Positions 1 to 43,612 of a stretch of DNA of 43,612 nucleotides are shown here, in pieces. The DNA is from a virus. The position numbers and the translations under genes are program-made. Below the pieces are notes generated by a model. That model worked only from the letters and a program-made list of their open reading frames with translations, was not told the DNA's origin and searched no databases. The stretch is from the IMG/VR virus record IMGVR_UViG_3300025890_000047, positions 1-43,612 of that record; one strand, given 5' to 3'. Every line of letters begins with the position of its first letter. The first letter of the stretch is position 1.

Positions 1-1254
1 TTGATGGGTATGGACATGTATCCAAAGATTGCAAAGTACCCAGGACTAAGACGCAAGCGAGCTACCAAAGAAAGCTGGGAAGCACATAGGTTTGTTAAAG
101 AAGAAGGCAAAGGTCTTAACATAAACCCACAAGACCCATCAGGTGCTGGCAATAGTTTTCACTACTCAATAGATGATAACAGAATTACAGACGAAGCGTG
201 GATACGACTTAATGGTTATGAGATTGGTATGCCACAACTTGGTCAGGTTTGGTTACTTGCCACGATACTTGACGAAGAAGCAGTCATCCGTTTCCAACTT
301 AATCCATACGGCAGACAGTTTCCTGTAGTCATTGGTGGTATATATCACGACAGTCACAAGACTTATGCACAGTCCTTGTACGACTTAATGCTTCCATTAC
401 ATGAGATAAGCACATGGTTATTGCGTTCTCGTATAGATAACGTACAGGCTGCACTAAGTAATTTGATATTTGTAGACCCAACATCCGTTAGTATTCCCGA
501 CTTGATTGACAGAAATCCGTGGGGATTAGTGCGTACTTTGCCAGGAACTAAACCAGGTGATGGTGTGTTTATCGCAGAAGTACCCGATGTTACCAGAGGT
601 CACTGGAATGATATTGGTCAAATGTCAGAACTAAAACAACGTATTAGTGCTGCGTCAGACATGCAACAGGGTATGCCGACTGGAGATGGAATACGATCTG
701 CGACTGAAATCCAACGACTTACACAACTCGGATCACAAAGACTTGGTGTTATCAGTCGTGTTATGTCAGCCACAGCCGTTAGACCTATGGTTCGTATGAT
801 GGTTGCTAACCTTCAGGATGCAATCAACATGGAGGGTTCTCTAAGAATTTCAGCAGAAGATAGTCCAGGTAAACTAGCGTCTGTCATATCGGACGACTAC
901 CTAGATTTCGATGCTACAATGTTACAAGGAGAAATAGATTATTTAGTTGTTGACGGAACTTTACCAGTTGAGCCGACAAGAAACGCAGAGACATGGATGA
1001 ACATCTTACAAGTGATGAGCCAGAGTGGTTTGTCTATGGAATACAAGATGGGCAAGATTGCTGAAGAAGCTGTGCGTTCAATGGGTGTGTCAGACTTGGA
1101 TCAGTTTAAGATTTCTAAGGATGAAAAAGCACAGGGCATGTCGCCATCTCAGGAGATGGAGATGATGGAAAAAGCAAGGGGTGCTTCGGTAATGCCAGCA
1201 GAACAGTTACAGCAAGAGGCACAAAAAGGTAATTTGAAAAGAATGGGAGAGTAA
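1..1254 (+). CDS. Portal protein, C-terminal part (cut by window edge)
   Basis: The dodecameric portal forms the DNA channel at the capsid vertex, binds terminase during packaging and carries the tail. The 417 readable residues are open from base 1, so the N-terminal part probably lies outside the window and the TTG at base 1 need not be the start. Typical of podovirus-type portals are a mixed wing/stem region near residues 100-160 (a segment beginning YAQSLYDLMLPLHEIST followed by RIDNVQAALSNL), a helical stem near 210-275 rich in Gln and Met (SATEIQRLTQLGSQRLG) and a Met/Gln/Glu-rich charged C-terminal barrel (from about 370). Position upstream of tail and scaffold genes fits. Family assignment is by recognition of overall pattern, not alignment; a head-tail connector of another name is the only serious alternative. 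Confidence 0.82.
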   Translation: MMGMDMYPKIAKYPGLRRKRATKESWEAHRFVKEEGKGLNINPQDPSGAGNSFHYSIDDNRITDEAWIRLNGYEIGMPQLGQVWLLATILDEEAVIRFQLNPYGRQFPVVIGGIYHDSHKTYAQSLYDLMLPLHEISTWLLRSRIDNVQAALSNLIFVDPTSVSIPDLIDRNPWGLVRTLPGTKPGDGVFIAEVPDVTRGHWNDIGQMSELKQRISAASDMQQGMPTGDGIRSATEIQRLTQLGSQRLGVISRVMSATAVRPMVRMMVANLQDAINMEGSLRISAEDSPGKLASVISDDYLDFDATMLQGEIDYLVVDGTLPVEPTRNAETWMNILQVMSQSGLSMEYKMGKIAEEAVRSMGVSDLDQFKISKDEKAQGMSPSQEMEMMEKARGASVMPAEQLQQEAQKGNLKRMGE

Positions 1255-1255
1255 G

Positions 1256-1537
1256 ATGCCAACTGAAACTAAAGCAGCAGAACTTGAGCAGAACCTTAGT
1301 CTTGATGGGTTGTCCAAGCAATGGATGAAACAGATTGTTAAAGAAGCCATTGAACAGCATGAAATGCGAACAATGCCAGTACCAGCACAGGGATGTGCAA
1401 ATTGTAGCTGTAAACAACAAATCCAAGAAGTCATGTGGAAACTAAATTCTTTAAATGCTCGATACCATGAGGACGACAAGTATGCCTTAACCAAGGCAAA
1501 ACTAATAACATTGATGCAAAAGATGGGTATTGAATAA
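1256..1537 (+). CDS. Small hypothetical protein with a Cys cluster
   Basis: A 93-residue protein starting one base after the portal stop with a good ribosome site (GGGAGAG) inside the portal end, so translation is probably coupled. It is predicted helical and contains a CANCSC cluster near residues 44-49 in the middle, followed by a charged helix. Two overlapping antisense frames here are shadows. The family is not recognised. Its place directly after the portal suggests a small structural or assembly role, but the sequence gives no direct evidence for function; the Cys cluster could bind a metal. Confidence 0.7.
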   Translation: MPTETKAAELEQNLSLDGLSKQWMKQIVKEAIEQHEMRTMPVPAQGCANCSCKQQIQEVMWKLNSLNARYHEDDKYALTKAKLITLMQKMGIE

Positions 1538-1598
1538 GTAAGGACGACAGATGCCGACCATCAAAGTAAATTTGTATCAACTATAAACGGGAAGTAAT

Positions 1599-2117
1599 AT
1601 GGCTTTTACAAGACCAACAGGAGAACAAATATCGTTCAGGTCGGCAACGACTGGAACCCATGTTCTTGATACATATCTGGAAGCGTGTGAGAAAGGTGGC
1701 TTTACCCTATCTGCTCTTATGGATAATTTGTATGCGTCTGATGGTGGATTAAATCCAACAGCACTAGCTTTCCGTGTTAACCAAACTGCTGGAGCAGACC
1801 CTAAACTCCAAGCTAGGTTTGGTAATTTTACTAATGCTAACGATGGGTGGCTTGATACAAACCAATTCTTTTTCAGACAGAAGGGTATTTATGCTTCTGG
1901 AGAAAGTTATGAACGACTTGACATGGTTCAAAGTGGTCAAAAGGTTTTAGTTTGTATCACAGCACATACTTCAGCAGCGACAGTAGACAATACAAAATGG
2001 GTTGAGTTCTTTGATGGAAACGCAATTCTTTCAGAGATCACAACTTTTAGAACAAACTCAGAGCCACGCTTAGACTTACTTGAGGAAAGTGTCTTGCTTG
2101 GTATTAACGTCCTTTGA
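1599..2117 (+). CDS. Putative virion/tail-associated protein, unknown family
   Basis: A 172-residue protein preceded by GGGAAG at good spacing. It begins with MAFTRPTGEQISFRSATTGT and has alternating short hydrophobic and polar stretches suggesting a beta-rich fold, with an aromatic middle (WLDTNQFFFRQKGIYASGESYERLD) that I read as a compact binding domain. The C-terminal 20 residues form a predicted helix. It sits 13 bases upstream of the RCC1-type spike gene and after the portal, so a role at the tail or as a fibre adaptor is plausible. No catalytic motif is visible and I do not recognise the family. Confidence 0.6.
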   Translation: MAFTRPTGEQISFRSATTGTHVLDTYLEACEKGGFTLSALMDNLYASDGGLNPTALAFRVNQTAGADPKLQARFGNFTNANDGWLDTNQFFFRQKGIYASGESYERLDMVQSGQKVLVCITAHTSAATVDNTKWVEFFDGNAILSEITTFRTNSEPRLDLLEESVLLGINVL

Positions 2118-2130
2118 AGGAGGAAAATAA

Positions 2131-7034: not shown

Positions 7035-8216
7035 ATGGCTGCTATTTCAGGACTTCGTGGGACTGGTCAGTTTTCTACCGACTTCCGACCTACGAATTAT
7101 AGAGAGTTATTTACTCTCCTAGAGCCAAATGGTTCTGCACCACTACAGGCATTGTTATCAATGACTGGCAGTGAAAGCACAGACGATCCAAAGTACAATC
7201 ACTTTCGTGACGAACTTCCAGATCGTAAGCTACAAGTAAATGGTGCTGTCTCATCTACTTCAACAACAACTGTTACTGTTGATGCAAGTGATGACGAGGC
7301 TTTCGTTATTCCAGGAACTATTATTTATAATACAGTAACTGGAGAAGTAATGAGAGCGACTGCTGCTGCTAATACTTCCAATCACCAGTTGACTTTGGAA
7401 CGTAATATCGGTGGTACATCTCACCAGATTGCTGATGACAGTGCACTAATCATTGCTGGTTTTGCAGATATTGAAGGTGGCACAGCACCAACTGCTGTAT
7501 CATTTGATCCAACCACAGACTTTAACTTTACGCAGATTTTCAAAACTGCTGTTCAAGTTTCTGGTACTTTGCAAAACACCTATCTCCGTACTGGAGACAA
7601 GGAGCAAGAGAGCTTAACTAAAGCACTCAAGATGCACATGTCAGACATTGAAAGAGCAATGTTCTTCGGCAAGCGTCACATCGCCAACGGATCAACTGCT
7701 TCACCAACTCGTTACACTGGTGGTTTGTTATCTCAGATTACAAACATCTCAGATGCAGCGTCTGGTTTTGCATCCTCTAACACAATTACTGAAAAAGAAT
7801 TTGATCGTCTATTGATCGAAAACATTTTCCAGTATGGTGGTTCAGAGAAAGTTATGTTCGCTGGTGCAAGGGTTATCTCTAACCTTATGGAAATTGGTAA
7901 GAACAGGTGGCAACCTACTCAGGTAGACAACGCTTATGGTGTATCATTCACTCGTTACACAACATACGCTGGCGATCTACTTGTGCAGATGCACCCAATG
8001 TTCCGTCAAGTTCCTAACATGGCGAAGACTGCCGTTATCCTTGATATGAATGAAATCTCATACAAGTACATGGCTGGTCGTGATACTCAGTTAATGAGAA
8101 ACATTGAAACTCCAGACTTTGATGGTGTGAAGCACATGTATCAAACTGAGTGTGGGCTTGAAATGTTACAATCTAAGCCTCACTGGGTAATCAAGAACTG
8201 GAACGCAGTATCATAG
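7035..8216 (+). CDS. Major capsid protein, SU10/DUF5309-like
   Basis: A 393-residue coat protein with strong ribosome site AAGGAG. The N-terminal region is followed by a beta domain (PGTIIYNTVTGEVMRATAA), then a segment typical of this family, FNFTQIFKTAVQVSGTLQNT (about residue 165), then SDIERAMFFGKRHI and a conserved late region (WQPTQVDNAYGVSFTRYTT, MNEISYKYMAGRDTQ). These match the SU10-type major capsid family (DUF5309, HK97 fold) as I know it. It is followed by a hairpin terminator and preceded by scaffold, the usual arrangement. There is no sign of a cleaved N-terminal delta domain in the sequence, which agrees with a separate scaffold gene. Confidence 0.9.
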   Translation: MAAISGLRGTGQFSTDFRPTNYRELFTLLEPNGSAPLQALLSMTGSESTDDPKYNHFRDELPDRKLQVNGAVSSTSTTTVTVDASDDEAFVIPGTIIYNTVTGEVMRATAAANTSNHQLTLERNIGGTSHQIADDSALIIAGFADIEGGTAPTAVSFDPTTDFNFTQIFKTAVQVSGTLQNTYLRTGDKEQESLTKALKMHMSDIERAMFFGKRHIANGSTASPTRYTGGLLSQITNISDAASGFASSNTITEKEFDRLLIENIFQYGGSEKVMFAGARVISNLMEIGKNRWQPTQVDNAYGVSFTRYTTYAGDLLVQMHPMFRQVPNMAKTAVILDMNEISYKYMAGRDTQLMRNIETPDFDGVKHMYQTECGLEMLQSKPHWVIKNWNAVS

Positions 8217-10714: not shown

Positions 10715-10717
10715 AAA

Positions 10718-29000: not shown

Positions 29001-31628
29001 TTACAAAGATCAAGCCTAGCCGATCCAGTCGTAAGAGTGGTAAGGCGTATGGCTAAGAAACAACCACTGGAAGAAGGCGACTTACAGCGAGCGTCAAAAT
29101 TTTCTACTGTTAAAAGTTGGTTCACTGAAAACTCAATTAGGTTTAGAGACAAAGGTGCTCACTGGTATGGAAATCTTTTAAAGCCTAAGAATGGTATAGG
29201 TATATTTGAAAAACACTCAGTTGATTTGGCTGGTAAGATAAACCCTATCTTTTCTAAACTAGAAGAATTGCCTGATGCCAAAGGCCGTATATCAAAGTGG
29301 ATGGGTAAAAACTCTGGGTTAATTGGCAAAGGTGTTCCAGTTCCCGATAGCCACAAAAGAATTGTTAACGCTCTTAGGGCTGGCAACTTGGCTGTCTTAA
29401 AACAAGGTGAAAGAAAAATTGCACAACAAATAGCAAATGCGTTTACTAAAGAACTAAACGATATGAGAGCTATAGGCATCAAGGTTGGTGATGTTACCCA
29501 GGGAGGACGTAATGGTTATTACTTCCCACAAGTTTGGGACGTTGAAGCAATTAGGGAAAATCCTAATGCCTTTATAAACGGCTTATTGGAAATGTTTGTC
29601 CGAGAACAAAACTCTCCAGACTTTGAGGGCACAAGGTTAACTCGTGATGAAATACTAACGAAAGCAAAGAACCTTCAAGAAAGAATGGTTGATAACGAGG
29701 GTGTGGCTGATGAGAGTTTAGTTCACACTGCTATCTCTGATCCATTTTCAAGAAGGATGCTTACTCTAAAGCCAGAAGAAATGAAGGGAATGAGGGGATA
29801 CTTAGTCAACGACCTCCAAGGAATTTTGGCTAAATACTTTGACAGATCAACTCGTAAGATAGCTCTATCAGAAAAGTTTGGAGTAGAGGGTCACGGCTAT
29901 GATGCTTATAAATCTATTGCAGATTTAGGAGATGATGCTGCTGTAACTATACTATCTAATGCCAAGCTAACAGTTAGTAAGTTTGATAGTATGGGTGTAA
30001 AGGTTGATACTGGAGACACTATTGTTCCTAAAATAAACAAGTCGTTTGATGAAATAAAAGAACTTATAGGCTCTGTAAAGAAAGCTCTTGCTGGGAACCC
30101 TCAACAAAATATGGTTCAGGCGAAGAACATTCTTATCAACGCTATAGATGTTACTCAAAGAACTAACCCTCAATTTCTAGTAAGGGTAGATGCAGTCGTC
30201 AACGCACTGGCTGACTTTCAAGGCGTACCACAAAGAAAGGGTTTAATAAGTGACCTTGAAAGCATGAACAGGGTTTTGAACAAGAGACCTATTACTGGAG
30301 AAGGTCACGAATTTTCACACCAGTTCACAAGAAGGCTCAAGACTTTCAATGCTGTTTCGTTACTTGGATTTACAACCCTAACTTCAATGCCTGATTTAAC
30401 TTTACCTTTAATTAGGTCTGGTAACTTAGGTGCTTTTGCCAAGGCTTGGAAACAATATAGTTCCAACCCAGCTTACAGGGCTGCTGCAAAGAATATTGGT
30501 GTGGGTATTGAGAACCTTATGCACGACAGAATGGTACAGATGGCTGGCGAGGGAAATCAGAAGTTTAGTAACTCATTCTTTAACGCAACCTTGTTGACCG
30601 ACTGGACTAACTTCAACAGACAGATGGCATCAATGGTGGGTATGGAAGCCTTTAGGTCAGAAATACAAAACGCTATTACTCTTAGAAACCAAGGAAAACA
30701 AAACAGTCGTTCATATAAAACTTCTGCAAGTTTTTTAGAAAGGTATGGACTAACTGGTGAAAATGCCGAGGTTGATTACTTGTTACCAGGAGCACCACGA
30801 GTGGATATGCCGACTGAAAACCTAGCACAAAGACAAGCATTTAAATATGCAGCTATGCGTTTTACTAACGAAGCTATTTTCACACCTAACCCAAATGACA
30901 TACCGATGTGGGCACAAACACCTTGGGGTTCATTAATGTTCCAGCTTAAATCTTTCCCACTAATGATGGGTAGGATGAGTAAAGATGTGATGTCAGAAGC
31001 CTTTGGTAAAAATGCAGATGGCACAATGAAAGCTAATTTCAAACCACTAATGTATTTACTTACGGCTGGTATAGGTATCGGTGCAGCTTCGGCTGGTGTC
31101 AAAGACCTTGTTCAAGGAAGAGGCGAAGACAGTCAAGGCAATAAGATACGAGAGTTCAGAGATCGAAAGGCAACTGACAGTATATCTTACATAGCTTCAT
31201 TGTTGGGCATCGAAGAAGATGGAGATACTGATAAAGTTTTAGGTTGGTACATCGAAGGTCTCATGGCAATCGGTGGCTTGGGCTTGTTTGCTGAAATGCT
31301 ATACAACTCTTCGGCTCAACTAGATAATGGAAAGTATGGATTTGTCAGAACAATGTCAGCCATAGCTGGCCCAGGAGTTTCTGCTGCTGAAGATATACTT
31401 TTTGATATTCCAGCAGGAGCAAAAGACTTTGTTACAGGTGACGGGACTAAGACTGGTCAAAGGCGTGAAATGTTTAGATCAATCGCTGGACGACTGCCTG
31501 TACTCGGAGGTCTTCATGGCTTCAGAGAAGGAGCAGCCGACTTGGGTGGCAAGAAAGGTGGCAATAAAAAAACCCAATCTAAATTTGGCAAGGTTACGTT
31601 TGCAACTAACAAAGGGTTTGGGAATTAA
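20031..31628 (+). CDS. Giant 3865-residue polyvalent/ejection protein: metallopeptidase and ADP-ribosyltransferase-like domains
   Basis: One uninterrupted 11.6 kb frame from a GTG start (GGAG seven bases upstream). Residues 131-161 and 221-246 are Gly/Ala-rich hydrophobic segments, as are about 3672-3695 and 3736-3758, fitting membrane insertion. Residues 270-800 and 1150-1450 are mostly coiled coil. Around 1760-1970 is a zincin-like domain with HEVGHW (ligands H1876 and H1880, catalytic E1877) and a downstream SPAELFAHQF whose E1931 is the likely third ligand. Around 2685-2945 is an ADP-ribosyltransferase-like domain with YIHSG (H2694), GEYGPGYYMQ (Y2716/Y2717) and SETVIVNY (E2927), the H-Y-E layout. 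Phage 'polyvalent' proteins combine such domains and enter the host with DNA. The C-terminal 900 residues are helical with no catalytic motif I recognise. Delivery into the host is inferred. Confidence 0.8.
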   Translation: MAFKDSQEGGDWSWLDQPSGEGSASLGYAANLDKQKALEVYKNGEFIQDIMDYYGERDGITFSSNEEAYDKFWTDRTWRNLNTFAIGADYLDGKSNTDAQNIRLARLQSVHTALPDFWQEGGNRDAGHLADIAGSVILDPINAIGFGAGGAAAKTAAFTAIRSGLSKEAAKSAGRNAAMKKGFVAEGAANALVEGVANVGIQNRDIEIGLRGEYNPFETATASAMGFALGGALGVPMGLAGAYMPAFTKAGRSGSHDWKTSNKLSQGMREGKKARFQDKLDAASNEVANEIVDEVDDMTASQILRGNVIARAKQDYDKARAETAEQNGGLDLEKGDANNLPDGELSTWSNLEAASARVDHLAKASHERKASAQQIAPEDPAKANDLMNESQKLAEASNAIQDAFNRMNKKYEDGLVPTEKEIETLLSEDQRAQQLLFDFNTGSDPNVKNPVDPKDAVIPGARPDTQLPDGSAVQDVAPKTDPVAVQAEARQVEINKAQTDVDNTKASFEAGATKVNNASRKLTRLTGAYERSLQSGVPENVTSAEQALRVAEEELDVATGELEVLTNNAKIAEDALVAKKSEELKAAPDQDTSPEVVAETEATATGNKVVEEPQSAEEIVDELVNSTDPDEKISFTSLKSTLNYIVDELGFSRAEVINSLPKAKKGRPTNADKEAFRSAAIQFTERAMVQQQAQNAIEQLTSPEQFFDFNVVSGILDSTFTDPRLRAIAQDEYITAIADQSPSYIANLISENPNLKMSEILIQAEDYFGKEVAEIMANSMKSDVVQKSSIDMDKLIGKKAAIGNMTSNIKAMNDTIFRVSELRKAILGKLTDEEFKRGYGQVTETKKIRGQENLTQAQVNQIVNNPNFKGQVDTYSSFSFQAGSGSTPQRAVANDAEKQVKEIAKSNGINPDLNSGEIIEQLEMRVRKLENELDAGVRTPIDMTKPQGSTLTKAEFAQLSEKQQIMEVFVSRLPKGKVEQINAMREQLIKANIADGTITPEMAVSTADLAVERTIENMMKRDELLGQVDGKGKSFSSNQSTRGMQDASVADQYADNASHMGKTYEGGFGKISIGRNRTMVGGSASKRVQKILRSANRVGLNDGAVFRKHGIVKGESATVSFQEAALQELEQSFIDNATNRVVRSDEKIKDNKVEFDNANNAIKEANKLNAQIKKLDKEIDENPGAENVPQLEKDVQLLNQQVTKIYEDAIAKAPDYAAEKGKLNQLEPTLRGTVLEIRKEFSQETAKEAAGRKAENRKSSPVGKVQVILNELKNHQTNIVKAKKRGRSKPIMDALYSEKKEIYKRYNAEFKKLSKSDQKRIKEANKKVATQTAAEIEIRQRAKEQEVADIKIDEVPEWYGLDDITPEERVGIIEDSQKLADQNNKSQAAEVEIKQKAQAVLSNDLPKDEMVRIILELKSELDAIKNGVPPTKAPTGTQFKPYIRKIDGYEVDVHNHFKFEGKGGEGFLVFDGVRVAQMGKIGDKVSLTLITDKASSNDIRLFSNSNMMKDNIPEIFKNRIAEYAERTGAIIKTEGEEGLQFKQEWNKSETYKGRAEADAEDLVIDDPTVETSPISDPKNVMTHTANDYQVPPGRKMAVQIIDDVEGSALHGVVRIPNPNQTIGQVLKTSSNKKFIIGHVKIDRKIASGRRKKGMANVVTPASLAEAMEDFTPLTPSEGKVTYQEGQLLLGNKTVADKSPRKRAMRPVKVEDLGNIKVKKSFLPNAVADKIDNAADLQAYINNLENISWSRLGTLADVKRFTNTLKQAYAAMGNAVPNGVKRIELDQRQSFKTLRNVFKGRADDEIEASLDFLRRINPDGSNGAMPRFEGVDGIEGDANAVGAYNTNDGKILLTDKLFEKGGDEQLRPIPATITVVHEVGHWAYDNMLTPSEKMMFWHSMSKYYDADGNLDMELLQKRLPGISGNEIESPAELFAHQFTSYALNIGAVPDAALFIKVARHAVTLIERFVFGKHPMGIQSADPDLEALFERIIPRNQFDADGSVVHGASRFAGLEENGYTVSPTAGFIGRQLNELDNMRSKLTSVMNVSIVNDVADTQLLLKTLEETGKNIYSKFGGGQGKTHHYTNKATGEGGNQRVRLLDGQVTNKQEVVTGDGSTKLVNIYNYPAARRARNRLLNAQSAIRDYMKEVTTYEASTKTSTDDAELRQLIASQQMDMEDAMPDNSFIEMDEMELANVGSSWEAQAEVLSRQMTMTTGNLNFMHIRRLAGDMLNAIDDGQRELVKAFNRNMPRDDMSRQVSIDFKGDASITQPSIKGRKKKMGDAIQLRQEKQLVNDIKELETESVLLTQVGNDALLSAIRNGDPKIFMDSLAETNPVIKKSVKQMTDAELNAEKKRTNYGDKRKVDLALEVSARKNASKNVNQEEAEIVSDPAVQKAINNEVAQTAGTDSIAGIPAKTPQPIKDFLRGLTNGDKVQEAVGQNLIYRLLNVGGHTIDDFDTGFVPESIMEGIFTQNTVPKRATGEPASLKDQAYNGLRKELRAITKSLSGKGDMTPRDMEVMSDLAFHLSMSDATKAKFVSNMRTLELPSGLDSLLWLRQAMVYKAEGNLAELQRHVRVFEVEDGFYKIPANPKAQELMRIVNRHFETIAYSLNGNFDPDKLPLQLMSYGDMFASQRIDTGISSAVDGADKRFVNKHVVQDYAVEAVDKLHQDKEIIARSFLGVSREADLKNHTYIHSGQDGMNTQIHKTEVGEYGPGYYMQTLSEFNSKSSADLHNRGADDLIKSSSVSDNLKQKSLMANRKLTDVNIAIDALSMEKKMATPARKKEIVGTLQNLVKRANSLQTIINRTATVNLNSDVVPVFSNPRNMFNFSRTAIYDFVNPSDNNIAHIIADMGEKGLISVKGVQKLQEVLDGSFTGSDFFRALTDENVGVMHKHGDSVNSFEAKTRLNEYLEDAGYEGSVHSNKNSETVIVNYNSETMKPINGDFTEAELNNTNQGKSGGDIKPTGDLLIKQLEEGEAFDPTDFVGFSAQLQRSSLADPVVRVVRRMAKKQPLEEGDLQRASKFSTVKSWFTENSIRFRDKGAHWYGNLLKPKNGIGIFEKHSVDLAGKINPIFSKLEELPDAKGRISKWMGKNSGLIGKGVPVPDSHKRIVNALRAGNLAVLKQGERKIAQQIANAFTKELNDMRAIGIKVGDVTQGGRNGYYFPQVWDVEAIRENPNAFINGLLEMFVREQNSPDFEGTRLTRDEILTKAKNLQERMVDNEGVADESLVHTAISDPFSRRMLTLKPEEMKGMRGYLVNDLQGILAKYFDRSTRKIALSEKFGVEGHGYDAYKSIADLGDDAAVTILSNAKLTVSKFDSMGVKVDTGDTIVPKINKSFDEIKELIGSVKKALAGNPQQNMVQAKNILINAIDVTQRTNPQFLVRVDAVVNALADFQGVPQRKGLISDLESMNRVLNKRPITGEGHEFSHQFTRRLKTFNAVSLLGFTTLTSMPDLTLPLIRSGNLGAFAKAWKQYSSNPAYRAAAKNIGVGIENLMHDRMVQMAGEGNQKFSNSFFNATLLTDWTNFNRQMASMVGMEAFRSEIQNAITLRNQGKQNSRSYKTSASFLERYGLTGENAEVDYLLPGAPRVDMPTENLAQRQAFKYAAMRFTNEAIFTPNPNDIPMWAQTPWGSLMFQLKSFPLMMGRMSKDVMSEAFGKNADGTMKANFKPLMYLLTAGIGIGAASAGVKDLVQGRGEDSQGNKIREFRDRKATDSISYIASLLGIEEDGDTDKVLGWYIEGLMAIGGLGLFAEMLYNSSAQLDNGKYGFVRTMSAIAGPGVSAAEDILFDIPAGAKDFVTGDGTKTGQRREMFRSIAGRLPVLGGLHGFREGAADLGGKKGGNKKTQSKFGKVTFATNKGFGN

Positions 31629-34834: not shown

Positions 34835-35007
34835 TGCAAGGAACTCCAGCTTGCCCAAGATGTGGTGCTATATGTGGAACAATGTGGGTTCATGGTCACG
34901 AGCAGTGTGCCGTATGCCATCAAGTAGCTGACGGAGATTGCTGTTCTGGAGAGACTGCTAGTTGTCCAGTCCAGTCAGAGGAACCCTCCGACTATCAGGA
35001 TCAGTAA
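34834..35007 (+). CDS. 57-residue Cys-rich zinc-ribbon-like protein
   Basis: TAATG coupling plus GAGGA at good distance support translation. The product starts MQGTPACPRCGAICGTMWVH and continues GHEQCAVCHQVADGDCCSGE with a further Cys, i.e. C-x2-C, C, C-x2-C, CC, C. It looks like a small zinc-binding protein. Its 3' 50 bases overlap the 3' end of the convergent dNMP-kinase gene on the other strand, so the two transcripts are complementary there. Confidence 0.6.
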   Translation: MQGTPACPRCGAICGTMWVHGHEQCAVCHQVADGDCCSGETASCPVQSEEPSDYQDQ

Positions 35008-35611
35008 CATCCTCTTCTTCAAATGGGTCATCACCAAAAAATTCTGGTGGGTGTTCCATTTGGTAAGACTTAAACAAATCAAAGTTTACTATTTTATCTA
35101 GCATCGCAAAGATGCCGTGGCTTTCTTTCTCATTGTTGGTTAGTGTGTGGTCACACTTGAAATCAATCAGTTCCGATGAGTGCGTTGCGTCTTGCAATTC
35201 GCCCCTCTTTAGATGAATGGTCACTCCCCCCATTGCCTTCACTGCTTGAGCTTCGTTGATGTATCTCAAGTCGTCTGCCACTACGGGGGTTCCTAAAGTC
35301 AGGTGTCGTTCCACCTCTTTGACCCAAGTGTTTGCCCAAAATTCGTTGCCGATCTGGTCTCGACCCCATTCCACTCCCAAGGATTGCATCGCCCATCGTG
35401 GTGTTTTCCCTTCTAATAAATCACACGGCACTTCTTTAAGTGAGCCTTCAATGTGTGCATCGGTTAAACCAATCGCTCTAAGCATATTCTTTAGAGGATC
35501 AGCCATCTTGACTTTAGCATATCCGTGGTGTGCACACAAATAGTCGGCACATAAAGTTTTACCCGTTCCAATTTGACCAGCAAAGGCCACGACTTTAATT
35601 CTGGTATTCAT
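34958..35611 (-). CDS. Deoxynucleoside monophosphate kinase
   Basis: A 217-residue P-loop kinase that phosphorylates dNMPs to dNDPs for DNA synthesis. P-loop GQIGTGKT lies at residues 12-19, followed by a lid region (ADPLKNMLRAIGLTDAH), TPRWAMQSLGVEWGRDQIGN (typical of T4 gp1-like dNMP kinases) and VVADDLRYINEAQAVKAMGG. The start is set at 35611 because AGGAG lies five bases before this ATG; an upstream in-frame start would add 11 residues without such a site. It overlaps the preceding small gene by 17 bases and is the last gene of the minus-strand cassette. The Asp/Glu-rich C-terminus (DDPFEEEDVTDPDSRRV) is an extra tail. Confidence 0.85.
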   Translation of the reverse strand: MNTRIKVVAFAGQIGTGKTLCADYLCAHHGYAKVKMADPLKNMLRAIGLTDAHIEGSLKEVPCDLLEGKTPRWAMQSLGVEWGRDQIGNEFWANTWVKEVERHLTLGTPVVADDLRYINEAQAVKAMGGVTIHLKRGELQDATHSSELIDFKCDHTLTNNEKESHGIFAMLDKIVNFDLFKSYQMEHPPEFFGDDPFEEEDVTDPDSRRVPLTGLDN

Positions 35612-35789
35612 ATCCACTCCTGACAAGTTGTATTGATAGGTCAAGTCTTTCTGAAATAAGAAACCTAAGTTTATCCAACGCTTTCTTTACTTCGTCCTTC
35701 GACATATCACCTCTCATGTGCATGAGCCGTGCGTTTAGATTGTCTATCTCAGCCTCAATCGTTAACTTTCTTTCTATAATTTTCTCCAA
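35595..35789 (-). CDS. 64-residue coiled-coil protein (TTG start)
   Basis: It opens at TTG 35789-35787, directly abutting the nuclease stop (TAA TTG), with AAGGAG nine bases upstream; no ATG fits as well. The product is a charged helix-helix (MEKIIERKLTIEAEIDNLNA, LDKLRFLISERLDLSIQLV). A dimeric coiled coil is likely. Located between nuclease and dNMP kinase, its role is unknown. Confidence 0.6.
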   Translation of the reverse strand: MEKIIERKLTIEAEIDNLNARLMHMRGDMSKDEVKKALDKLRFLISERLDLSIQLVRSGYEYQN

Positions 35790-36584
35790 TTATTTTTTCT
35801 CCTTCGGCACATAAGGTTCCCATGCCTCGCAATGAGTTGTGCATCCTTTACTGCATACCCATTCCCCTTTGAAATTTGCTTGTGCATTGCCACATGTTGT
35901 GATGATTTTTTCTTCTGGCATTTTGCCATGCCAACATGCTTCTCTCTTAAAGCATCCACGACATCGCCAGTCACTCTCATCGGTTGCGACTTTAGTGATG
36001 TCATCTTTTAAAATTCTCTCAATCTTTGACATTAAAAATTCATAACGGAACTCATCGAAGTCTACATACTCATGTAAATAAAGACTGTTGTTCTTGCAGT
36101 AACTAACAAACAAGAAGCAAGGCAACCCTGACATTCCCATCATCATCATCATCTGGTCATAATATTTTGGGTGTGAATATCGCACACCTTTTTTTAGACA
36201 CGACTTAAACATTGCATCATTCATAGATTTAATTTCTACACCATGAGCAACCCCGTCTATCTCAACTATGCCATCAGCATGTCCGACTGCTAATCCATTA
36301 TAAGCAGTGTAAGACCATTGCTTCCCAGTCATAGGATCATTTTCCATAACAGAGATGCCAGCTTTTTTTAGGTCAGCAACAACTCTGTATTCAATACTAT
36401 GACCATCCCTAAATATTCTCTTCAACTTAGGGTCGGGAGAAGTTTCTGGATAACCACGATGAGCAAAAGCTATAGCGACAAGGCAATCATTACCAATACC
36501 TGATGCACCAATATATGATCTGGCTTTTTGTTCTGGGTCTGATGCGTATGCTTCATCAATAAGATTTGTAATGTCTGGTTTCAT
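35790..36584 (-). CDS. Cas4-like PD-(D/E)XK exonuclease with Cys cluster
   Basis: A 264-residue nuclease, likely a 5'-3' or branched-DNA exonuclease for recombination. The catalytic motif is GHADGIVE with D104, then HGVEIKS with E117 and K119. A conserved Cys34 (GNDCL) and C-terminal Cys (208, 211, 217, 231, 244, 248, 252) suggest a Fe-S or zinc cluster as in Cas4/AddB-type nucleases. A hydrophobic, Met-rich helix (YYDQMMMMMGMSGLPCFLF) follows the active site. It belongs to the minus-strand cassette with SSB-like and Sak4-like genes. Its start codon lies four bases downstream of a strong terminator hairpin and has no clear ribosome site, so expression may be limited. Confidence 0.8.
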   Translation of the reverse strand: MKPDITNLIDEAYASDPEQKARSYIGASGIGNDCLVAIAFAHRGYPETSPDPKLKRIFRDGHSIEYRVVADLKKAGISVMENDPMTGKQWSYTAYNGLAVGHADGIVEIDGVAHGVEIKSMNDAMFKSCLKKGVRYSHPKYYDQMMMMMGMSGLPCFLFVSYCKNNSLYLHEYVDFDEFRYEFLMSKIERILKDDITKVATDESDWRCRGCFKREACWHGKMPEEKIITTCGNAQANFKGEWVCSKGCTTHCEAWEPYVPKEKK

Positions 36585-36629: not shown

Positions 36630-37121
36630 TTAAAAGGGTATATCATCATCTAAGTCTTTGCTTGTGCTTACCGAAGGTTGACTAGGGGAGGAGGACACCA
36701 AACCTTTCGGCACGCTTTTGGGATCGATAAAGCCTGAGACCTTAGTACCAGCACGATCTTCGCCAGTCGTCTTGTCTTTGAAGCTCTCATCAACAACCCT
36801 GATCCCTGGCTCAAGTCCAATAAGACTGGAGATGTCGCCTGGTTTATCTGGATTACTATGACCACCGAAAGTACATAGTGCTTTCAGTTGTTCTCGACCA
36901 ATTCTTGTTGCAGCTTCTGATGATGGGGTGTGAACATTAATCCACATCCTAATCATTCCATCATCACAAGACATGTTAACGTAAACTTGAGAGCCACCAG
37001 TCGCAGTCTTGCGAACTTCAGCCTCTGTTACTTTCACAACATACTTACCTTTGGGTAGTTGCTGACTTCCTTTTGCAGCTACAATCCCTTCAAGGTTTAA
37101 ATCTTCAAAACTAAACGCCAT
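36630..37121 (-). CDS. Single-stranded DNA-binding protein (DUF669-like)
   Basis: A 163-residue protein with an OB-fold-like N-terminal 120 residues (LPKGKYVVKVTEAEVRKTAT, GGSQVYVNMSCDDGMIRMWI) and a flexible Ser/Pro/Lys linker ending in DLDDDIPF. The acidic DDDIPF tip is the hallmark of bacterial SSB proteins and recruits partners. The core resembles phage DUF669 proteins as I recall. It overlaps the Sak4-like gene by 11 bases and is followed by a terminator, so it is likely the most abundant product of this cassette. Role: coating single strands during replication and recombination. Confidence 0.82.
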   Translation of the reverse strand: MAFSFEDLNLEGIVAAKGSQQLPKGKYVVKVTEAEVRKTATGGSQVYVNMSCDDGMIRMWINVHTPSSEAATRIGREQLKALCTFGGHSNPDKPGDISSLIGLEPGIRVVDESFKDKTTGEDRAGTKVSGFIDPKSVPKGLVSSSPSQPSVSTSKDLDDDIPF

Positions 37122-37938
37122 TATTTTCTCCTTCTTTTATATGTTTGGCTATCCATTTATCGTAAGTGTCATCGTCCATATCCATTCTGCGAAAGAGATC
37201 GACAATGTTTCCAGTCTGCTCGACTGGTCTTAGTCTGCGTTTTTCGTCACGGACTTTTCCCTTCCATCCATTGACCTCATCAGTGATGACATAACGGATT
37301 ACTTTCTTTTTCGCCTTGTCATCAGTGTCGGCTGTATGCCTTACACCACAAAAGACTGCATCGAAAATTCCAGGGAGTTGTTGTTGAGTAGCTTTGCCAC
37401 CAACCATAGCCCAATACTCTACGTTGCCGTTATCATCTGTGCTCTCTTTTGAAAGAGCCGTGATTAAAACATGACAAGGTAGGTCTCGGATTAATTTACA
37501 AGCACCAATTATATTGGAGCCATGAGTTGCGTAAACTTCAAATCCATTCTTAGCTTTGCCTAGTTTCTTTGCTTCATTCTCAGCAAGCTCATTGGCATAC
37601 TTCATACTGTGATCGGATAGTTCAGTAAGACTATCAATCCCAATCCACTTGTAATCTTTAGAATTAAAGTCTTCCGACTTGATCCACTTAACAATATCTC
37701 TGAAAGAATACTTGTTGTTATCTGGATTTGTTTCGCCACCCCAACTCGTAAAGGGTAGGTAATCAATACCACTAGATCGAATAGAACTAAGTCCACTCTC
37801 TCCACTAATAATGAAACCCTTTCCATAATGCTTTTGATAGTGAGCAAACTGAGTGGTCTTACCCCACCCATGATGCCCGTACAGTAAACATTTACGATAA
37901 GAAGTGGTGTGGTCATTCGTATTCATTGGACTAAACAT
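37111..37938 (-). CDS. Sak4-like RecA-fold ATPase
   Basis: A 275-residue ATPase (AAA_24/Sak4 type). Walker A GHHGWGKT is at residues 21-28, and Walker B is KWIGIDSLTELSDHSM (catalytic Asp near 102). The rest (ELPGIFDAVFCG-like region, VKVIRYVITDEVNGWKG-like end) is typical of phage single-strand annealing/exchange ATPases that act with SSB. The start is placed at ATG 37938, which has GAGG six bases before it; a longer start at 37950 lacks one. Gene order Sak4, SSB and nuclease is a known phage recombination set. It overlaps the preceding gene by eight bases. Confidence 0.82.
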   Translation of the reverse strand: MFSPMNTNDHTTSYRKCLLYGHHGWGKTTQFAHYQKHYGKGFIISGESGLSSIRSSGIDYLPFTSWGGETNPDNNKYSFRDIVKWIKSEDFNSKDYKWIGIDSLTELSDHSMKYANELAENEAKKLGKAKNGFEVYATHGSNIIGACKLIRDLPCHVLITALSKESTDDNGNVEYWAMVGGKATQQQLPGIFDAVFCGVRHTADTDDKAKKKVIRYVITDEVNGWKGKVRDEKRRLRPVEQTGNIVDLFRRMDMDDDTYDKWIAKHIKEGENNGV

Positions 37939-38338
37939 CCGACACCTCACTCACATTTATGGTTGTTGTTCCTAACTTGCGTGTAAGACATGGCAGAACT
38001 TCTTTCTGCTCATCTTCTGTTAGGGAATTAAATTTTCTTTTATTAATAGTAAGTCTTTTGCTTACATGTGCTGGCAACTCATCACGATCAGAAAACAAAT
38101 CAAACATTAAGTCTTGATCCCATTCCCAACGCTCTTGAATTTTCACAGTCACCAAGCTCTTACCAGCTTTAAGCGACTGCTCACCAGTCTCCTTAGAAAA
38201 ACTCTCAAGGATTTTATCCTTCAAGCCTTCCATCTCGTCTTCAATTTTTTGTTTGGTTTTAATAAGGTGGTCATAGCGTTCTGCTTGTCCACTTAGAGTA
38301 GTTTCATCTGCCCCATCATAGGCATCCCAATCACTCAT
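37931..38338 (-). CDS. First gene of recombination cassette, helical protein
   Basis: A 135-residue protein with an excellent ribosome site (GGAGG). The first 55 residues form a charged helix (YDHLIKTKQKIEDEMEGLKD) and the second half is mixed alpha/beta (SLVTVKIQERWEWDQDLMFD, AHVSKRLTINKRKFNSLTED). It leads the minus-strand operon of Sak4-like ATPase and SSB-like gene, so an accessory recombination role is likely. The family is one I have seen next to such ATPases but cannot name. Confidence 0.65.
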   Translation of the reverse strand: MSDWDAYDGADETTLSGQAERYDHLIKTKQKIEDEMEGLKDKILESFSKETGEQSLKAGKSLVTVKIQERWEWDQDLMFDLFSDRDELPAHVSKRLTINKRKFNSLTEDEQKEVLPCLTRKLGTTTINVSEVSDV

Positions 38339-38862: not shown

Positions 38863-38863
38863 A

Positions 38864-39076
38864 ATGAATTTCAACGCAGTCAAATTTATTGATGATTGTG
38901 GTGGCGTAAACGAAGTCGCAAAGGTTATGGGGAAACATAGGACAGCACCTTATAGGATTATAAGGTCTAACTACATTGGCTCTCCACTCCTTTGTAAATT
39001 ACTGGAACGAAATCCTCATTTGGATTTGAACGATTACTTTAATAAGGACACACAAAATGACAGAGACAGTGAATGA
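38864..39076 (+). CDS. Small Cro-like HTH protein
   Basis: A 70-residue protein with AGAGGA before the ATG. Residues 10-35 (DDCGGVNEVAKVMGKHRTAP) and the following YRIIRSNYIGSPLLCKLLER fit a compact helix-turn-helix of Cro or XRE type, with the recognition helix around KHRTAPYRII. It overlaps the prim-pol/helicase by 20 bases, so translation is coupled. Likely an autoregulator of the replication operon, though no operator is shown. Confidence 0.6.
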   Translation: MNFNAVKFIDDCGGVNEVAKVMGKHRTAPYRIIRSNYIGSPLLCKLLERNPHLDLNDYFNKDTQNDRDSE

Positions 39077-41048
39077 CGAATGGCGAAAGTCAATGCACCA
39101 ACAAGCGACAGAGGCAGTTGATAGAGGGTGGAATATTATACCACTTAGTATAACAAGCAAGAAGCCTCTGATAAAATGGGCAGAATATCAGACCAAACAA
39201 ATTACCCATGATGAGGTTGATGAATGGTTCTATGAGGGTGTAGCTACGGAGAGTGGTACAGTCATCAAGAACTTTAACTTAGCCCTGATAACTGGGTCTA
39301 TTTCTGGTGTAGTGGTAGTTGACTGCGACAACGATAAGGCAGTTGAGTATTGCAAGAGTAAAGAGTTAACCACACCATATAGTGTTAAGACTACTAGAGG
39401 TAGGCACTTCTACTTTTCACACCCACAAAATGGTAAGCGATTTCAAAACACAGTTGATCTACACAAAGTTCAGGGCTTAGATTTTAGAGGCGATGGTGGT
39501 TATGTTGTTATGCCTCCGTCCGTTAAGATCAAGGATGGTAAAGTCGCACACATGTATGACTGGGAAATAGGTGTCGGGTGTGACTGGGATAACCTTGACG
39601 ACTTTGCCTGGAGCGAAAATCCTACCGAAGTCCTGGCTCCGATGGAGGGTGAGTTCTCGTTTGGCAACCTCGACTTAGAGAATGTAAAGGTGGCTGACGT
39701 ACATGATGCGATGCCTATATGGGATCAAGCTAAGTTAAGAGTTGCACACATCAATAGAAAGTTTACCACTGGAGATGGTACTGATACTTGGATGTTTAGA
39801 TTTGTCGCACAGAAAGTAAGACAAGGTATTACTGGAGATGATCTATATATAGTAGTCAATAAATTCCATGACGAGTTCTTTGATAGTACAAACTACACTC
39901 CGAATGACACAGATAAGTGGTTAAACGAGAAGATTAAGTCTGCCATTGACCTTGATAAAAGAAATTATAGGTCAGATTATGACAGTAATGGCGATAGAAA
40001 ATCCAATAAAGAAAAGAAAGCTACAAGGCTTGGTCGATTAAGACCTATATATAGTTCAGACGTAGATCGTTTGATCGATACATTAGGAGATACAGATTAC
40101 ATAGCCGAACCTTTAATAGCTCACGGAGCTATCTCACAAGTGGTTGGTTACAACGGGCATGGCAAGTCTTTTTTCTTATCTGCTTTGTTGACATCACTCG
40201 CATCGGGTAATCCAAACTTCGGGCCATACGAAACTAAGAAGCCGTGCAAAGTCTTTTACCTTGACTACGACAATCCAGCACGAACAGTTCTTCATCGCTT
40301 CAAGAACTTCACATCTATGTTTGGAGACACTGGACACAACATGAATATGTGGTCGCCAGCTTTGATTTCAAAAGAGGATGGTGGTGAGATGAACCTTCGT
40401 ACTGAAGATGGGTTCCGACTTCTTGAAGAATGGTTGGACGAGATCAAGCCTGACGTTGTTGTTATCGATACAGTCCGTAATGCTTTTGGTGGTATCGAAG
40501 AAGCATCGGCATCCGAGTGGTTCAAAGTAAATCATGTGGCTCGCAGCATCAGAACAAAATACAATGCAGCAGTCGTAGTCGTCCATCACAGGAATAAGCC
40601 TGGTGAAAGTGGGCTGGGCAGAGAAGCTGGATCGACAGCACAGCTAACCGACATTGATACACAGATTATGGTGACGCAAGTTTTTCAAAACAAACAGGAC
40701 GCAAAGCAGAAAGCTGGTATTCTTGATGGCGACTTTGAAGTTTACACAGGTAATGGTGAACGCAAAAGTCCATTCGGTTATCTGGATCAGTACCTAGAGC
40801 CTGACAGTAGATTGAAAATGGTAACGCAAGTTACGTTTGGTAAGGTTAGATCGCAGACAGAACTACATCAAACTCATTACATTGGTTGGGCTGAAAGATT
40901 GGTGGATGGTTCTTCTTATATAGTGTCAACTCTTTCGCCTAAACAAAAGGCGAGGATACTACATGAAAAGAAAGGGAAGTCTGCTATGGATATTAGCCGA
41001 GAGCTTATGCTTCCAGTCTACGAAGTTAAAAGGTGGATCGGGGAATGA
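39057..41048 (+). CDS. Prim-pol/helicase fusion replication protein
   Basis: A 663-residue protein that primes and unwinds DNA. Residues about 15-180 form an archaeo-eukaryotic bifunctional primase/polymerase: VVVDCDND with D89 and D91, GRHFYF with H117 and LDFRGDGGYVVMPPS with D142/D146. A linker (180-330) follows. Residues about 345-580 form a RepA/AAA_25-type RecA-fold helicase with Walker A VVGYNGHGKS (K370), VFYLDYDNPARTVLHRF, Walker B VVVIDTVRN (D471) and sensor AAVVVVHHRNK. Residues 630-663 form a C-terminal HTH (AMDISRELMLPVYEVKRWIG). Prim-pol/helicase fusions support phage and plasmid initiation, and since no DNA polymerase is visible in the window it may be the central replication factor. 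Confidence 0.88.
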   Translation: MTETVNDEWRKSMHQQATEAVDRGWNIIPLSITSKKPLIKWAEYQTKQITHDEVDEWFYEGVATESGTVIKNFNLALITGSISGVVVVDCDNDKAVEYCKSKELTTPYSVKTTRGRHFYFSHPQNGKRFQNTVDLHKVQGLDFRGDGGYVVMPPSVKIKDGKVAHMYDWEIGVGCDWDNLDDFAWSENPTEVLAPMEGEFSFGNLDLENVKVADVHDAMPIWDQAKLRVAHINRKFTTGDGTDTWMFRFVAQKVRQGITGDDLYIVVNKFHDEFFDSTNYTPNDTDKWLNEKIKSAIDLDKRNYRSDYDSNGDRKSNKEKKATRLGRLRPIYSSDVDRLIDTLGDTDYIAEPLIAHGAISQVVGYNGHGKSFFLSALLTSLASGNPNFGPYETKKPCKVFYLDYDNPARTVLHRFKNFTSMFGDTGHNMNMWSPALISKEDGGEMNLRTEDGFRLLEEWLDEIKPDVVVIDTVRNAFGGIEEASASEWFKVNHVARSIRTKYNAAVVVVHHRNKPGESGLGREAGSTAQLTDIDTQIMVTQVFQNKQDAKQKAGILDGDFEVYTGNGERKSPFGYLDQYLEPDSRLKMVTQVTFGKVRSQTELHQTHYIGWAERLVDGSSYIVSTLSPKQKARILHEKKGKSAMDISRELMLPVYEVKRWIGE

Positions 41049-41079
41049 TAGGTAATAGACTAATTAGAACATTGTTTTA

Positions 41080-41107: not shown

Positions 41108-41218
41108 CTAGTTGTTTCTAATTGTTTCTATCACCTCTCCGAGGATTATAACTATAGGTGTGGGGGGTACGTCAAGTAACTCATGCCTATTCTTATCACG
41201 AATGTTAACAATGAGGAT

Positions 41219-41240
41219 CGACCCCCCCTTATGGGGGTCG
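41219..41240 (+). other. GC-rich hairpin in leader of 41279 gene
   Basis: CGACCCCC, loop CCTTAT, GGGGGTCG: an 8-bp perfect stem in an A+T-rich region. It is followed by CTCTTAAAC, not a clear U-run. It lies 38 bases before ATG 41279 and could act as an attenuator or as protection of the leader. Confidence 0.6.
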
Positions 41241-41278
41241 CTCTTAAACTAAGGGAAGAAAGGAGAGGCGATACGAAA

Positions 41279-41608: not shown

Positions 41609-42130
41609 ATGAGTAATAAGAGTGGTAAGTTTGGTAAGAGAAAAGGCGATGGATATGAACGAGAACTGGCGAAGTATCTTGACCAAAAACTTTTCGGCAG
41701 CACGGGACAAATAAGTCGGATGCCGTTATCAGGAGGTGGGTCGCACCTGGGGGGTGGGGGTCGAGCCGACTTGCTAGGAACTCCGACTATCTGGGTCGAA
41801 GCAAAGCGAACAGAAAAGTTCAGTCCTTATGCTGCTATGGCTCAAGCTGAAAATGGTTTGATAGCTAGCAAAACAAAGGGCGAAGTTCCTGTAGTTATCA
41901 GTCGTAAGAACAACACGCCGACAGCCGACAGCTTAGTCGTAATGAAGCTCGGCGACTGGATCGAGTTGTATTCGGAATGGTTGAGAGCCTGTGGTTATGA
42001 AACTTATGATGAAGAAGAGATGGAAATAACAGTTACCTTCGATGAGCCACGACTTGTTCCAGGCTTACGGGACGACAGGGATGAAAAGGTTGTGCAATTA
42101 TTCAAGCCTAAGAACAACGAAGAGGATTAG
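41609..42130 (+). CDS. Holliday junction resolvase-like (Hjc type)
   Basis: A 173-residue protein with a PD-(D/E)XK core in the order and spacing of archaeal Hjc/phage resolvases: GDGYERELA (E17), GGGRADLLG (D54) and IWVEAKR (E64, K66). A Gly-rich loop (SGGGSHLGGGG) precedes D54. Residues 120-173 form a charged extra tail. It would cleave four-way junctions or branched replication intermediates before packaging. Gene order next to the HTH/zinc protein and in the replication operon supports this; a different nuclease specificity cannot be excluded. Confidence 0.8.
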   Translation: MSNKSGKFGKRKGDGYERELAKYLDQKLFGSTGQISRMPLSGGGSHLGGGGRADLLGTPTIWVEAKRTEKFSPYAAMAQAENGLIASKTKGEVPVVISRKNNTPTADSLVVMKLGDWIELYSEWLRACGYETYDEEEMEITVTFDEPRLVPGLRDDRDEKVVQLFKPKNNEED

Positions 42131-42133
42131 GAA

Positions 42134-42292
42134 ATGAATTGTTGCCCAGCACCAGATGTTTGCAAGAAGTTAGGTGGATGTATAGCCAAGATGAAAGGTT
42201 ATAACGAGAATGTTTCTCGGCTTGCTCCTAATATTATTGATGTAGTTCCACCCAAAAAGAAAAGCGTTGTGAAAGGCATACCTAAAAATTAG
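42134..42292 (+). CDS. 52-residue Cys-rich protein
   Basis: ATG 42134 has AGGA just upstream. The first 16 residues are Cys-rich (MNCCPAPDVCKKLGGCIAKM: four Cys), followed by a Lys-rich C-terminal half (PPKKKSVVKGIPKN). It could hold one zinc or disulfide knot. The stop codon's last base is the first base of the next gene's GTG. Family not recognised. Confidence 0.55.
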   Translation: MNCCPAPDVCKKLGGCIAKMKGYNENVSRLAPNIIDVVPPKKKSVVKGIPKN

Positions 42293-42789
42293 TGGCTGAC
42301 TGGCAAACTTGCCAGCACTGTATGGAAACCAAACCAATTAACGATTATTATAAAGTCGGTGGTCAGGCTAAAAACAAGGATCGCAGAGTGTTAACTTGTA
42401 AGACTTGTTACTTAGAAAAAAAGAATAGGAGCTTTGCTCTCAAACCAGAGAATTATATTAGGAGATCATTCAGCCAGTTAAGACATAGTCGTAAAAAGAT
42501 TAGCCCGAACATGGCATGGGATATTACATGTGAAGATGTTATTGAAATATATTATAAACAAAATGGAGAGTGTGCTCTCACAGGTATCCGACTGGATCAT
42601 ACTAGAACGGGAGATCGAAGGAAACGAAATCCCTTCAACATCAGCATTGATCGGATTGATAATGATGTTGGTTATGTTGTTGATAATATCCAATTAGTTT
42701 GTTCGGTTGTGAACATGATGAAAGGTGCGTGGAATGAAAGTGATTTCTTATACGTTTGTAAAAGGGTAGCTCTTCATGGAGAAGACTAA
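42292..42789 (+). CDS. HNH endonuclease with N-terminal zinc finger
   Basis: GTG start overlapping the preceding stop by one base. The 165-residue protein has C7-x2-C10 and C36-x2-C39 (zinc finger), then a linker helix and an HNH fold: NGECALTGIRLD, NISIDRIDNDVGYVVDNIQL (D120, N132) and CSVVNMMKG. This layout is typical of phage-encoded HNH enzymes; some are mobile homing enzymes and others help terminase. Because it is in the replication region and not next to terminase, homing or a recombination role is more likely. It is not inserted into another gene. Confidence 0.75.
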   Translation: MADWQTCQHCMETKPINDYYKVGGQAKNKDRRVLTCKTCYLEKKNRSFALKPENYIRRSFSQLRHSRKKISPNMAWDITCEDVIEIYYKQNGECALTGIRLDHTRTGDRRKRNPFNISIDRIDNDVGYVVDNIQLVCSVVNMMKGAWNESDFLYVCKRVALHGED

Positions 42790-43042
42790 ACATCAATTCA
42801 TTCAAGCCTATGTAGAAGAAGTCAATCTTGTTGAGGGTTACAATGTATCCCAGCTATCAGACAAAGCTCCAGTCCAAATAATACCCACCATTGAGATGAT
42901 GCCTAATGGATTAATCATAACCCTCGGCTCCTCAACCTATTTCTTTTCACACCTATCAAGCATTGAGTTTAGTTCCACCCTTGCAGAAGCCATGATGTCG
43001 TATGCGTTAGCCCAGAAGAATAAAAAAAAGGACGAAGATTAA
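42776..43042 (+). CDS. 88-residue hypothetical protein
   Basis: Overlaps the HNH gene by 14 bases with AGGG upstream of ATG 42776. It is amphipathic (QFIQAYVEEVNLVEGYNVSQ) with a hydrophobic middle (MPNGLIITLGSSTYFFSHL) and a Lys/Asp-rich end. Its TAA sits in the loop of the terminator at 43028-43050. It looks like a small soluble beta protein; no family recognised. Confidence 0.6.
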   Translation: MEKTKHQFIQAYVEEVNLVEGYNVSQLSDKAPVQIIPTIEMMPNGLIITLGSSTYFFSHLSSIEFSSTLAEAMMSYALAQKNKKKDED

Positions 43043-43050
43043 TCGTCCTT
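43028..43050. terminator. Bidirectional terminator with both stop codons in its loop
   Basis: AAGGACGA (43028-43035), loop AGATTAA, TCGTCCTT (43043-43050). On the minus strand the stem is followed by a run of eight T; on the plus strand by GGTTATTTTTA. The loop contains the TAA of the plus-strand gene and, on the other strand, the TAA of the regulator gene. Confidence 0.88.
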
Positions 43051-43278
43051 GGTTATTTTTAAATCGTATCCAATGCTTTGTAGCACGGCACGAAAGTTAT
43101 ATAGGTTAGGTATGTTTGAGTTCTGCCACCTTAGTATTGTTTGAAAAGAAACCCCTGACTTTTGAGCGACCTTGTTAATTGCCAAGCCTTGCTCATCACA
43201 TAAGTTCAAAAGTTCTTTCACCAAAGGATCGCATCGTAAATCCTCTACATCAGTTGCTCTTTTTCTACCCACTCTCAT
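43039..43278 (-). CDS. XRE-type HTH regulator
   Basis: A 79-residue protein; ATG 43278 is preferred over an upstream start at 43404 that would add 42 hydrophobic, non-conserved residues and run through the control region. Residues about 20-70 match a lambda-repressor-like fold: VKELLNLCDEQGLAINKVAQ, then KSGVSFQTILRWQNSNIPNL and RAVLQSIGYDLKI. The recognition helix is probably SFQTILRW. It faces the 14-bp palindrome at 43320-43333, its likely operator. In a lytic phage such a gene could control the early/late switch; no lysogeny genes are seen. Confidence 0.78.
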   Translation of the reverse strand: MRVGRKRATDVEDLRCDPLVKELLNLCDEQGLAINKVAQKSGVSFQTILRWQNSNIPNLYNFRAVLQSIGYDLKITKDD

Positions 43279-43612
43279 TGTAAAAGTTCGCCATATGTTG
43301 TGTGTCCTTCCATATATTAGTCTATATATAGACGTTATCAGATGTGTCACAGATGTGCAACAACTTACACAGATTAATTGAGATAAATAAAAATGAGTTG
43401 CCACTCAGTTGTGTACCCAAATAGTTTGTCCAAAGTTCGCCAAAGTTTTTGAGGGTTGTGTTACCTTGATGTCGTTGGTTGTCTTGGTCGCCATGATTTT
43501 TAATGGTGTTGGCAACTGTCATACGACAAGGGGACACGAACAAGTCGGAGTAATATTTGAGGGTGGATAAGGGTTTGAGGGGTGTCCGACTGGGAAATTG
43601 GCTCCCCGAAAT
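43279..43612. promoter_or_regulatory. 334-base gene-free control region
   Basis: No plausible gene. It contains a perfect palindrome GTCTATATATAGAC (43320-43333), the 11-base direct repeat AAAGTTCGCCA (43283-43293 and 43432-43442), AGATGTGT/AGATGTGC (near 43340-43360) and several GTTGTG words. The right half of the strand shown is G/T-rich. A promoter/operator area or replication origin are the leading options. Confidence 0.55.
43320..43333. repeat. Perfect 14-bp palindrome GTCTATATATAGAC
   Basis: It reads the same on both strands. It lies 42 bases upstream of the regulator start and is the best operator candidate in the window. Confidence 0.75.

Follow-up and report, generated by a model that had tools for sequence, protein, structure and literature searches.

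Gene content and family of the window

The window, that is, the whole 43,612-base stretch of DNA analysed here, comes from IMG/VR, where it is classed as a linear contig. It begins inside a portal gene and is a partial genome of a marine podovirus of the CRP-810 type. Its features are:

1..1254, + strand: portal protein, C-terminal part (SU10_portal, E 2.3e-22; N-terminus cut by the contig end)
2131..4773, + strand: 880-aa RCC1-repeat (beta-propeller-like) protein, adjacent to the portal gene, at the site of the CRP-810 'tail fiber' gene
7035..8216, + strand: major capsid protein (SU10_MCP, E 5.2e-42)
13870..14316, + strand: GNAT acetyltransferase, within the structural module as in CRP-810
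20031..31628, + strand: giant 3,865-aa ORF that takes up over a quarter of the window
34958..35644, - strand: deoxynucleoside monophosphate kinase
35790..36584, - strand: Cas4-domain / PD-(D/E)XK exonuclease
37111..37950, - strand: AAA ATPase, Sak4-like annealing protein
39057..41048, + strand: bifunctional primase-polymerase (PF09250 and PF13481, AAA_25)
41609..42130, + strand: RusA-like Holliday junction resolvase
42292..42789, + strand: endonuclease VII-like / HNH endonuclease

The major capsid protein matched that of Roseobacter phage CRP-810 at 61% identity over 99% (E 3e-150) and the primase-polymerase at 34% identity over 98%, and the order of the AAA ATPase, PD-(D/E)XK nuclease, Holliday junction resolvase and portal genes was syntenic with CRP-810. 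According to PMC11288001, CRP-810 infects the CHUG roseobacter FZCC0198 and is the type phage of a marine family whose 251 uncultured relatives have genomes of 52-68 kb; most members carry an integrase, and other members have been linked to SAR11, Poseidonocella and Sphingomonadaceae. The window resembles this family in capsid, primase-polymerase, AAA ATPase, nuclease, GNAT acetyltransferase and synteny. The abstract, results and part of the methods of that paper make no mention of site avoidance. Large terminase, cobS/cobT and integrase genes, some of which occur in clade relatives, are absent from the window, whose sequence covers about 44 of 52-68 kb and opens within the portal gene. A near-identity DNA search of the window against phage records gave zero matches. 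The 3,865-aa ORF had zero Pfam or PHROG matches and, from its gene position, may encode a large internal virion or ejection protein; it is about twice as long as the 2,016-aa hypothetical protein in the corresponding region of CRP-810.

Absence of GANTC and its execution at the codon level

An exact scan of the whole window found 0 GANTC in 43,612 bases, in agreement with the original prediction, which put the expectation from base composition at about 150; the computed value was 157.5. A dinucleotide shuffle gave 151.9±11.5, and the reversed control motif CTNAG occurred in 156 copies. When synonymous codons were permuted within each gene of the coding sequence, the control proposed along with the original prediction, 300 such codon-preserving shuffles yielded 101.3±7.7 sites, with a range of 81-120 (z = -13), which supports the strong selection against GANTC that had been proposed. 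No other single site was depleted as strongly in the window.

Since all Asp and Glu codons are GAN, the pair Asp/Glu-Ser represents the first reading frame of GANTC, and the serine codons following Asp/Glu were AGY in 69 cases and TCN in none, against 579 TCN and 248 AGY in all other contexts. Codons of the form NTC accounted for 0/144 after xGA and 505/2,807 in other contexts, and an ANT codon flanked by G-ending and C-starting codons for 0/44, compared with 203/422 elsewhere, so that all three reading frames obeyed the same absolute codon rule. The loss was mainly a matter of synonymous codon choice.

The selection extended to the amino-acid sequence, in which Asp/Glu-Ser was depleted: the window encodes 68 of these dipeptides versus approximately 112 expected from composition, and 104 in the order Ser-Asp/Glu. 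Across 24 genomes, members free of GANTC had a ratio of Asp/Glu-Ser to Ser-Asp/Glu of 0.62, as against 0.80 for the others (Fisher p = 6e-5; Mann-Whitney p = 9e-4), these p-values being optimistic because of the phylogenetic non-independence of the genomes.

Other recognition sites eliminated from the window

GANTC is one among about 40 non-redundant restriction-enzyme sites purged from this genome, and a description by GANTC only was therefore correct for that site but incomplete, as CCGG, CGCG, GCGC, CCGC and many others are also absent. Among the 616 distinct recognition sites of Biopython's enzyme table, 460 were testable, and 48 of these stood at <=10% of the codon-shuffle expectation in the coding sequence, against 8/375 reversed mock sites, the majority of these overlapping sites that are truly eliminated. 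With nested sites collapsed and a second-order Markov null, there were 40 non-redundant eliminated sites in the window and 0 in a simulated genome. Taking elimination as observed/expected < 0.1 at an expected count > 15, observed over expected counts by codon shuffle for eliminated sites included GANTC 0/102, CCGC 0/89, CCGG 0/40, RGATCY 0/37, GCGC 0/35, CGWCG 0/32 and GGWCC 0/29. Over the whole window, counts were zero for CCGC/GCGG, CCGG, GCGC, CGCG, GGWCC, RGATCY, CGWCG and YACGTR, as well as for AAGCTT, GAATGC, ACCTGC, CAGCTG, GGYRCC, GRGCYC and others; 41/64 six-base palindromes were eliminated, and the 4-mers CCGC/GCGG, CCGG, GCGC and CGCG were also zero in the close relatives L005 and L006.

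The losses were precise in their context. GATC was retained (118 copies), yet RGATCY and TGATCA were 0; AGCT was retained (222 copies, with AAGCTA 49 and AAGCTG 59), yet AAGCTT, CAGCTG and GAGCTC were 0; GGSCC was retained (20 copies), yet GGWCC was 0; and ACGT persisted as AACGTA and GACGTA, yet YACGTR, AACGTT and GACGTC were 0. GTGCAC, ACATGT, CTATAG and several A+T-only palindromes occurred at normal frequency, and the non-palindromic Type IIS sites CCGC, GAATGC, ACCTGC and CGTCTC were lost. The losses track enzyme-like specificity rather than palindromy or composition. Two further non-palindromic 5-mers were nearly or wholly missing from the window, L005 and L006 taken together, CCTGC/GCAGG (1 vs 104) and ACCGT/ACGGT (0 vs 45), neither of which matches a site in the enzyme table used; they possibly represent specificities outside it.

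Set beside a handful of yardstick phages, a comparison that carries no ranking among all phages, the 40 non-redundant eliminated sites of the window fall within the 15-47 of other family members (CRP-810 31, G020 42, G030 47) and compare with 22 each in HMO-2011 and HTVC010P, 19 in T7, 8 in Caulobacter phage Kuura, 6 in a Vibrio phage and 3 in lambda.

Turnover of lost sites within the family

Among 80 IMG/VR relatives gathered with the major capsid protein of the window as query, the sets of missing sites differed by clade. Every one of the 20 rows in the window's clade (G+C 0.41-0.53) had lost or nearly lost GANTC, and over the family this held for 44 of 86 rows. Loss of CGCG and GCGC within the window's clade was confined to its low-G+C branch (the window and L003-L006), in which CCGG was lost too, L004 retaining two copies. 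A neighbouring clade (L031, L033, L035-L037) holds GANTC at 60-75% of expectation and has zero GATC, CCGG, CGCG, GCGC and GGCC. In further clades GATC is missing altogether, or CCGG is at zero and GANTC scarce, or ACGT and TCGA are both at zero, as is GGCC where testable. Family relatives that keep GANTC have 30-252 copies (L033 46/60; G010 252; CRP-810 105) and instead are without GATC, GGCC, CCGG, TCGA or GCAGC. CRP-810 keeps the site that is 0 in the window, at a moderately low count (105 vs 170 CTNAG). By codon shuffle, CRP-810 (L001-L002) gave GCAGC 1/141, CCWGG 0/104 and GGWCC 0/69, and these are not the only sites it lacks.

On the capsid tree, the minimum number of changes was 12 for GANTC, 6 for CCGG, 5 for GATC, 4 each for CGCG and GCGC, and 3 for GGCC. 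Read most parsimoniously, the tree places the loss of GANTC in the common ancestor of the clade to which the window belongs; CCGG, CGCG, GCGC and CCGC would have disappeared at a later stage, from the low-GC branch that holds the window. The lost-site sets are lineage-linked in that near relatives have most in common (Jaccard 0.5-0.98 at >=90% capsid identity), the link between lost-set similarity and capsid identity over the whole family being borderline (Mantel p = 0.06).

Host of the window

Our best guess for the host is an alphaproteobacterium, because CRP-810, the only isolate of the family, infects a CHUG roseobacter. The alphaproteobacterial host that had been read from the absence of GANTC is accordingly probable, but its support comes from the host of CRP-810 and is independent of GANTC. 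Searches of bacterial genomes returned five family matches (L143-L147), all in public MAGs whose labels span several unrelated phyla (Phycisphaerae, Gammaproteobacteria, Neomarinimicrobiota, Flavobacteriales) and which probably contain mis-binned virus contigs. Only one match, in an already known MAG, was obtained from 385 alphaproteobacterial genomes.

Proposed stealth against Type II restriction and its alternatives

It is reasonable to suggest, at a probability of about 0.85, that sustained selection, exerted by Type II restriction as hosts changed, removed the sites and that the phage represented by the window escapes by sequence stealth. Incoming phage DNA bearing a site cut by the host would be destroyed on entry, so that synonymous and some amino-acid changes would have removed nearly all GANTC and about 39 other recognition sites. 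Phage lineages may have moved among hosts with different restriction enzymes, and the loss of other sites in other branches fits such movement. This reading starts from the observed absences, the precision of their context, their execution in codons, their distribution over clades and the near-lack of methylase genes; host Type II restriction as the agent is what we infer. Several points argue against it: no host enzyme was identified for GANTC or any other site; CCTGC and ACCGT were lost and match no site in the enzyme table; the family mostly carries integrases, and temperate phages are reported to eliminate sites less often (PMC6286503); and the correlation of lost sets with capsid identity over the whole family was borderline.

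A C5-methylase gene (PF00145) was found in 0/44 records and an N6/N4-methylase gene (PF01555) in 2/44, from which it follows that these phages do not shield their sites by methylation, and protection by phage-encoded methylases is ruled out as a general explanation. G033 (L133) encodes a 446-aa N6/N4 DNA methylase (10243-11436), yet GATC, GANTC and GGCC are almost completely lost from it. The genes exclusive to relatives without eliminated four-base sites included no convincing modification gene, and the idea of regarding those relatives as non-avoiders was dropped because their genomes turned out to lack other sites.

According to the original prediction, GANTC was avoided as the methylation site of CcrM. 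Under such CcrM-specific avoidance, the host enzyme would methylate GANTC, and the methylated or hemimethylated site could harm the phage by recruiting GcrA, by disturbing transcription or replication, or by exposing it to methyl-directed restriction, and GANTC would be dropped in consequence. The probable host class is the appropriate one, GANTC shows the strongest depletion of any single site, about half of the family rows have lost or nearly lost it, and its depletion has been published for about half of pelagiphages (PMC9516812). If CcrM drove the avoidance, GANTC should have been lost selectively and other sites should not; about 39 further sites are gone from the window, which CcrM leaves unexplained, and relatives keep 30-252 GANTC, among them L033, G010 and the roseobacter-grown CRP-810, which have lost GATC, GGCC, CCGG or GCAGC. 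CcrM as the mechanism does not follow from the absence of GANTC, and we hold it to be very unlikely. The same absence would result, in any host, from a HinfI-type restriction system specific for GANTC, and GANTC depletion alone should not be taken as a CcrM signal.

As a rule, CcrM is an orphan methylase that has no partner nuclease. On alphaproteobacterial plasmids, zero annotated nuclease was seen beside the CcrM-like gene in 3/3 copies inspected; on a Staphylococcus plasmid, a CcrM-like methylase adjoins a Type II nuclease. Some hosts of the clade might carry a stand-alone GANTC nuclease, for which a methylase of its own would be unneeded since CcrM protects the chromosome. We consider this unlikely; if true, GANTC would be a ready-made defence site across alphaproteobacteria, which would account for its being lost more often than any other site in the family.

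Self-avoidance, in which the sites missing from the phage genome would be targets of nucleases encoded by the phage itself or by a co-resident element, would agree with the endonuclease VII/HNH-like protein and the PD-(D/E)XK nuclease of the window, but dozens of specificities would require dozens of nucleases, and those of the window belong to general recombination and resolvase families common to the GANTC-keeping CRP-810, making it extremely improbable. A compositional or structural effect without restriction, such as mutation bias, CpG depletion or hairpin avoidance, can point to the low overall CpG (1,115/1,856), but the shuffles and the context table refute it and leave its probability close to nil: neither the codon-preserving nor the Markov null reproduces the losses, AGCT, TGCA and GATC remain common and are zero only with certain flanks, and non-palindromic sites were lost too.

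Relation to known site avoidance and significance

Restriction-site avoidance by phages is already known, elimination of Type II sites being an established strategy that affects about 7.5% of phage-site cases for host-enzyme sites and fewer in temperate phages (PMC6286503). The window is like the described cases (PMC6286503; T7, lambda) in the loss of Type II sites by selection, in extremes below 10% of expectation and in that orthodox Type II sites are affected; it differs in having about 40 sites eliminated in one genome, twice the number of T7 by the same measure, in a mostly integrase-carrying family whose sister clades have different sets. Depletion of GANTC in about half of pelagiphages is likewise known; the 2022 paper that described it gave no explanation, since SAR11 is without known restriction systems (PMC9516812). 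Those marine alphaproteobacterial phages are alike in that GANTC has gone from some clades and persists in others, but that paper concerns GANTC alone, whereas in the window GANTC is among many sites, and the phage family is a different one. Against the literature searched, the number of sites in one genome, their loss in a mostly integrase-carrying family and the clade-specific turnover may be new.

If Type II restriction in changing hosts did remove the sites, the set of missing sites would be a readable record of the restriction enzymes met by a phage lineage. Because these sets differ between sister clades, they could show which restriction enzymes mostly uncultured hosts possess, and they could help in pairing phages with their hosts. 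Streamlined marine alphaproteobacteria have few reported restriction systems (SAR11: PMC9516812), and phages of these bacteria, among them HTVC010P and HMO-2011, give the impression of having evolved with restriction as a dominant pressure. Both of these marine alphaproteobacterial phages show a purge of the same kind, with CTNAG at 0 vs about 114-120 in HTVC010P (L150), and GATC at 0 vs 157 and CCWGG at 0 vs 77 in HMO-2011 (L151).
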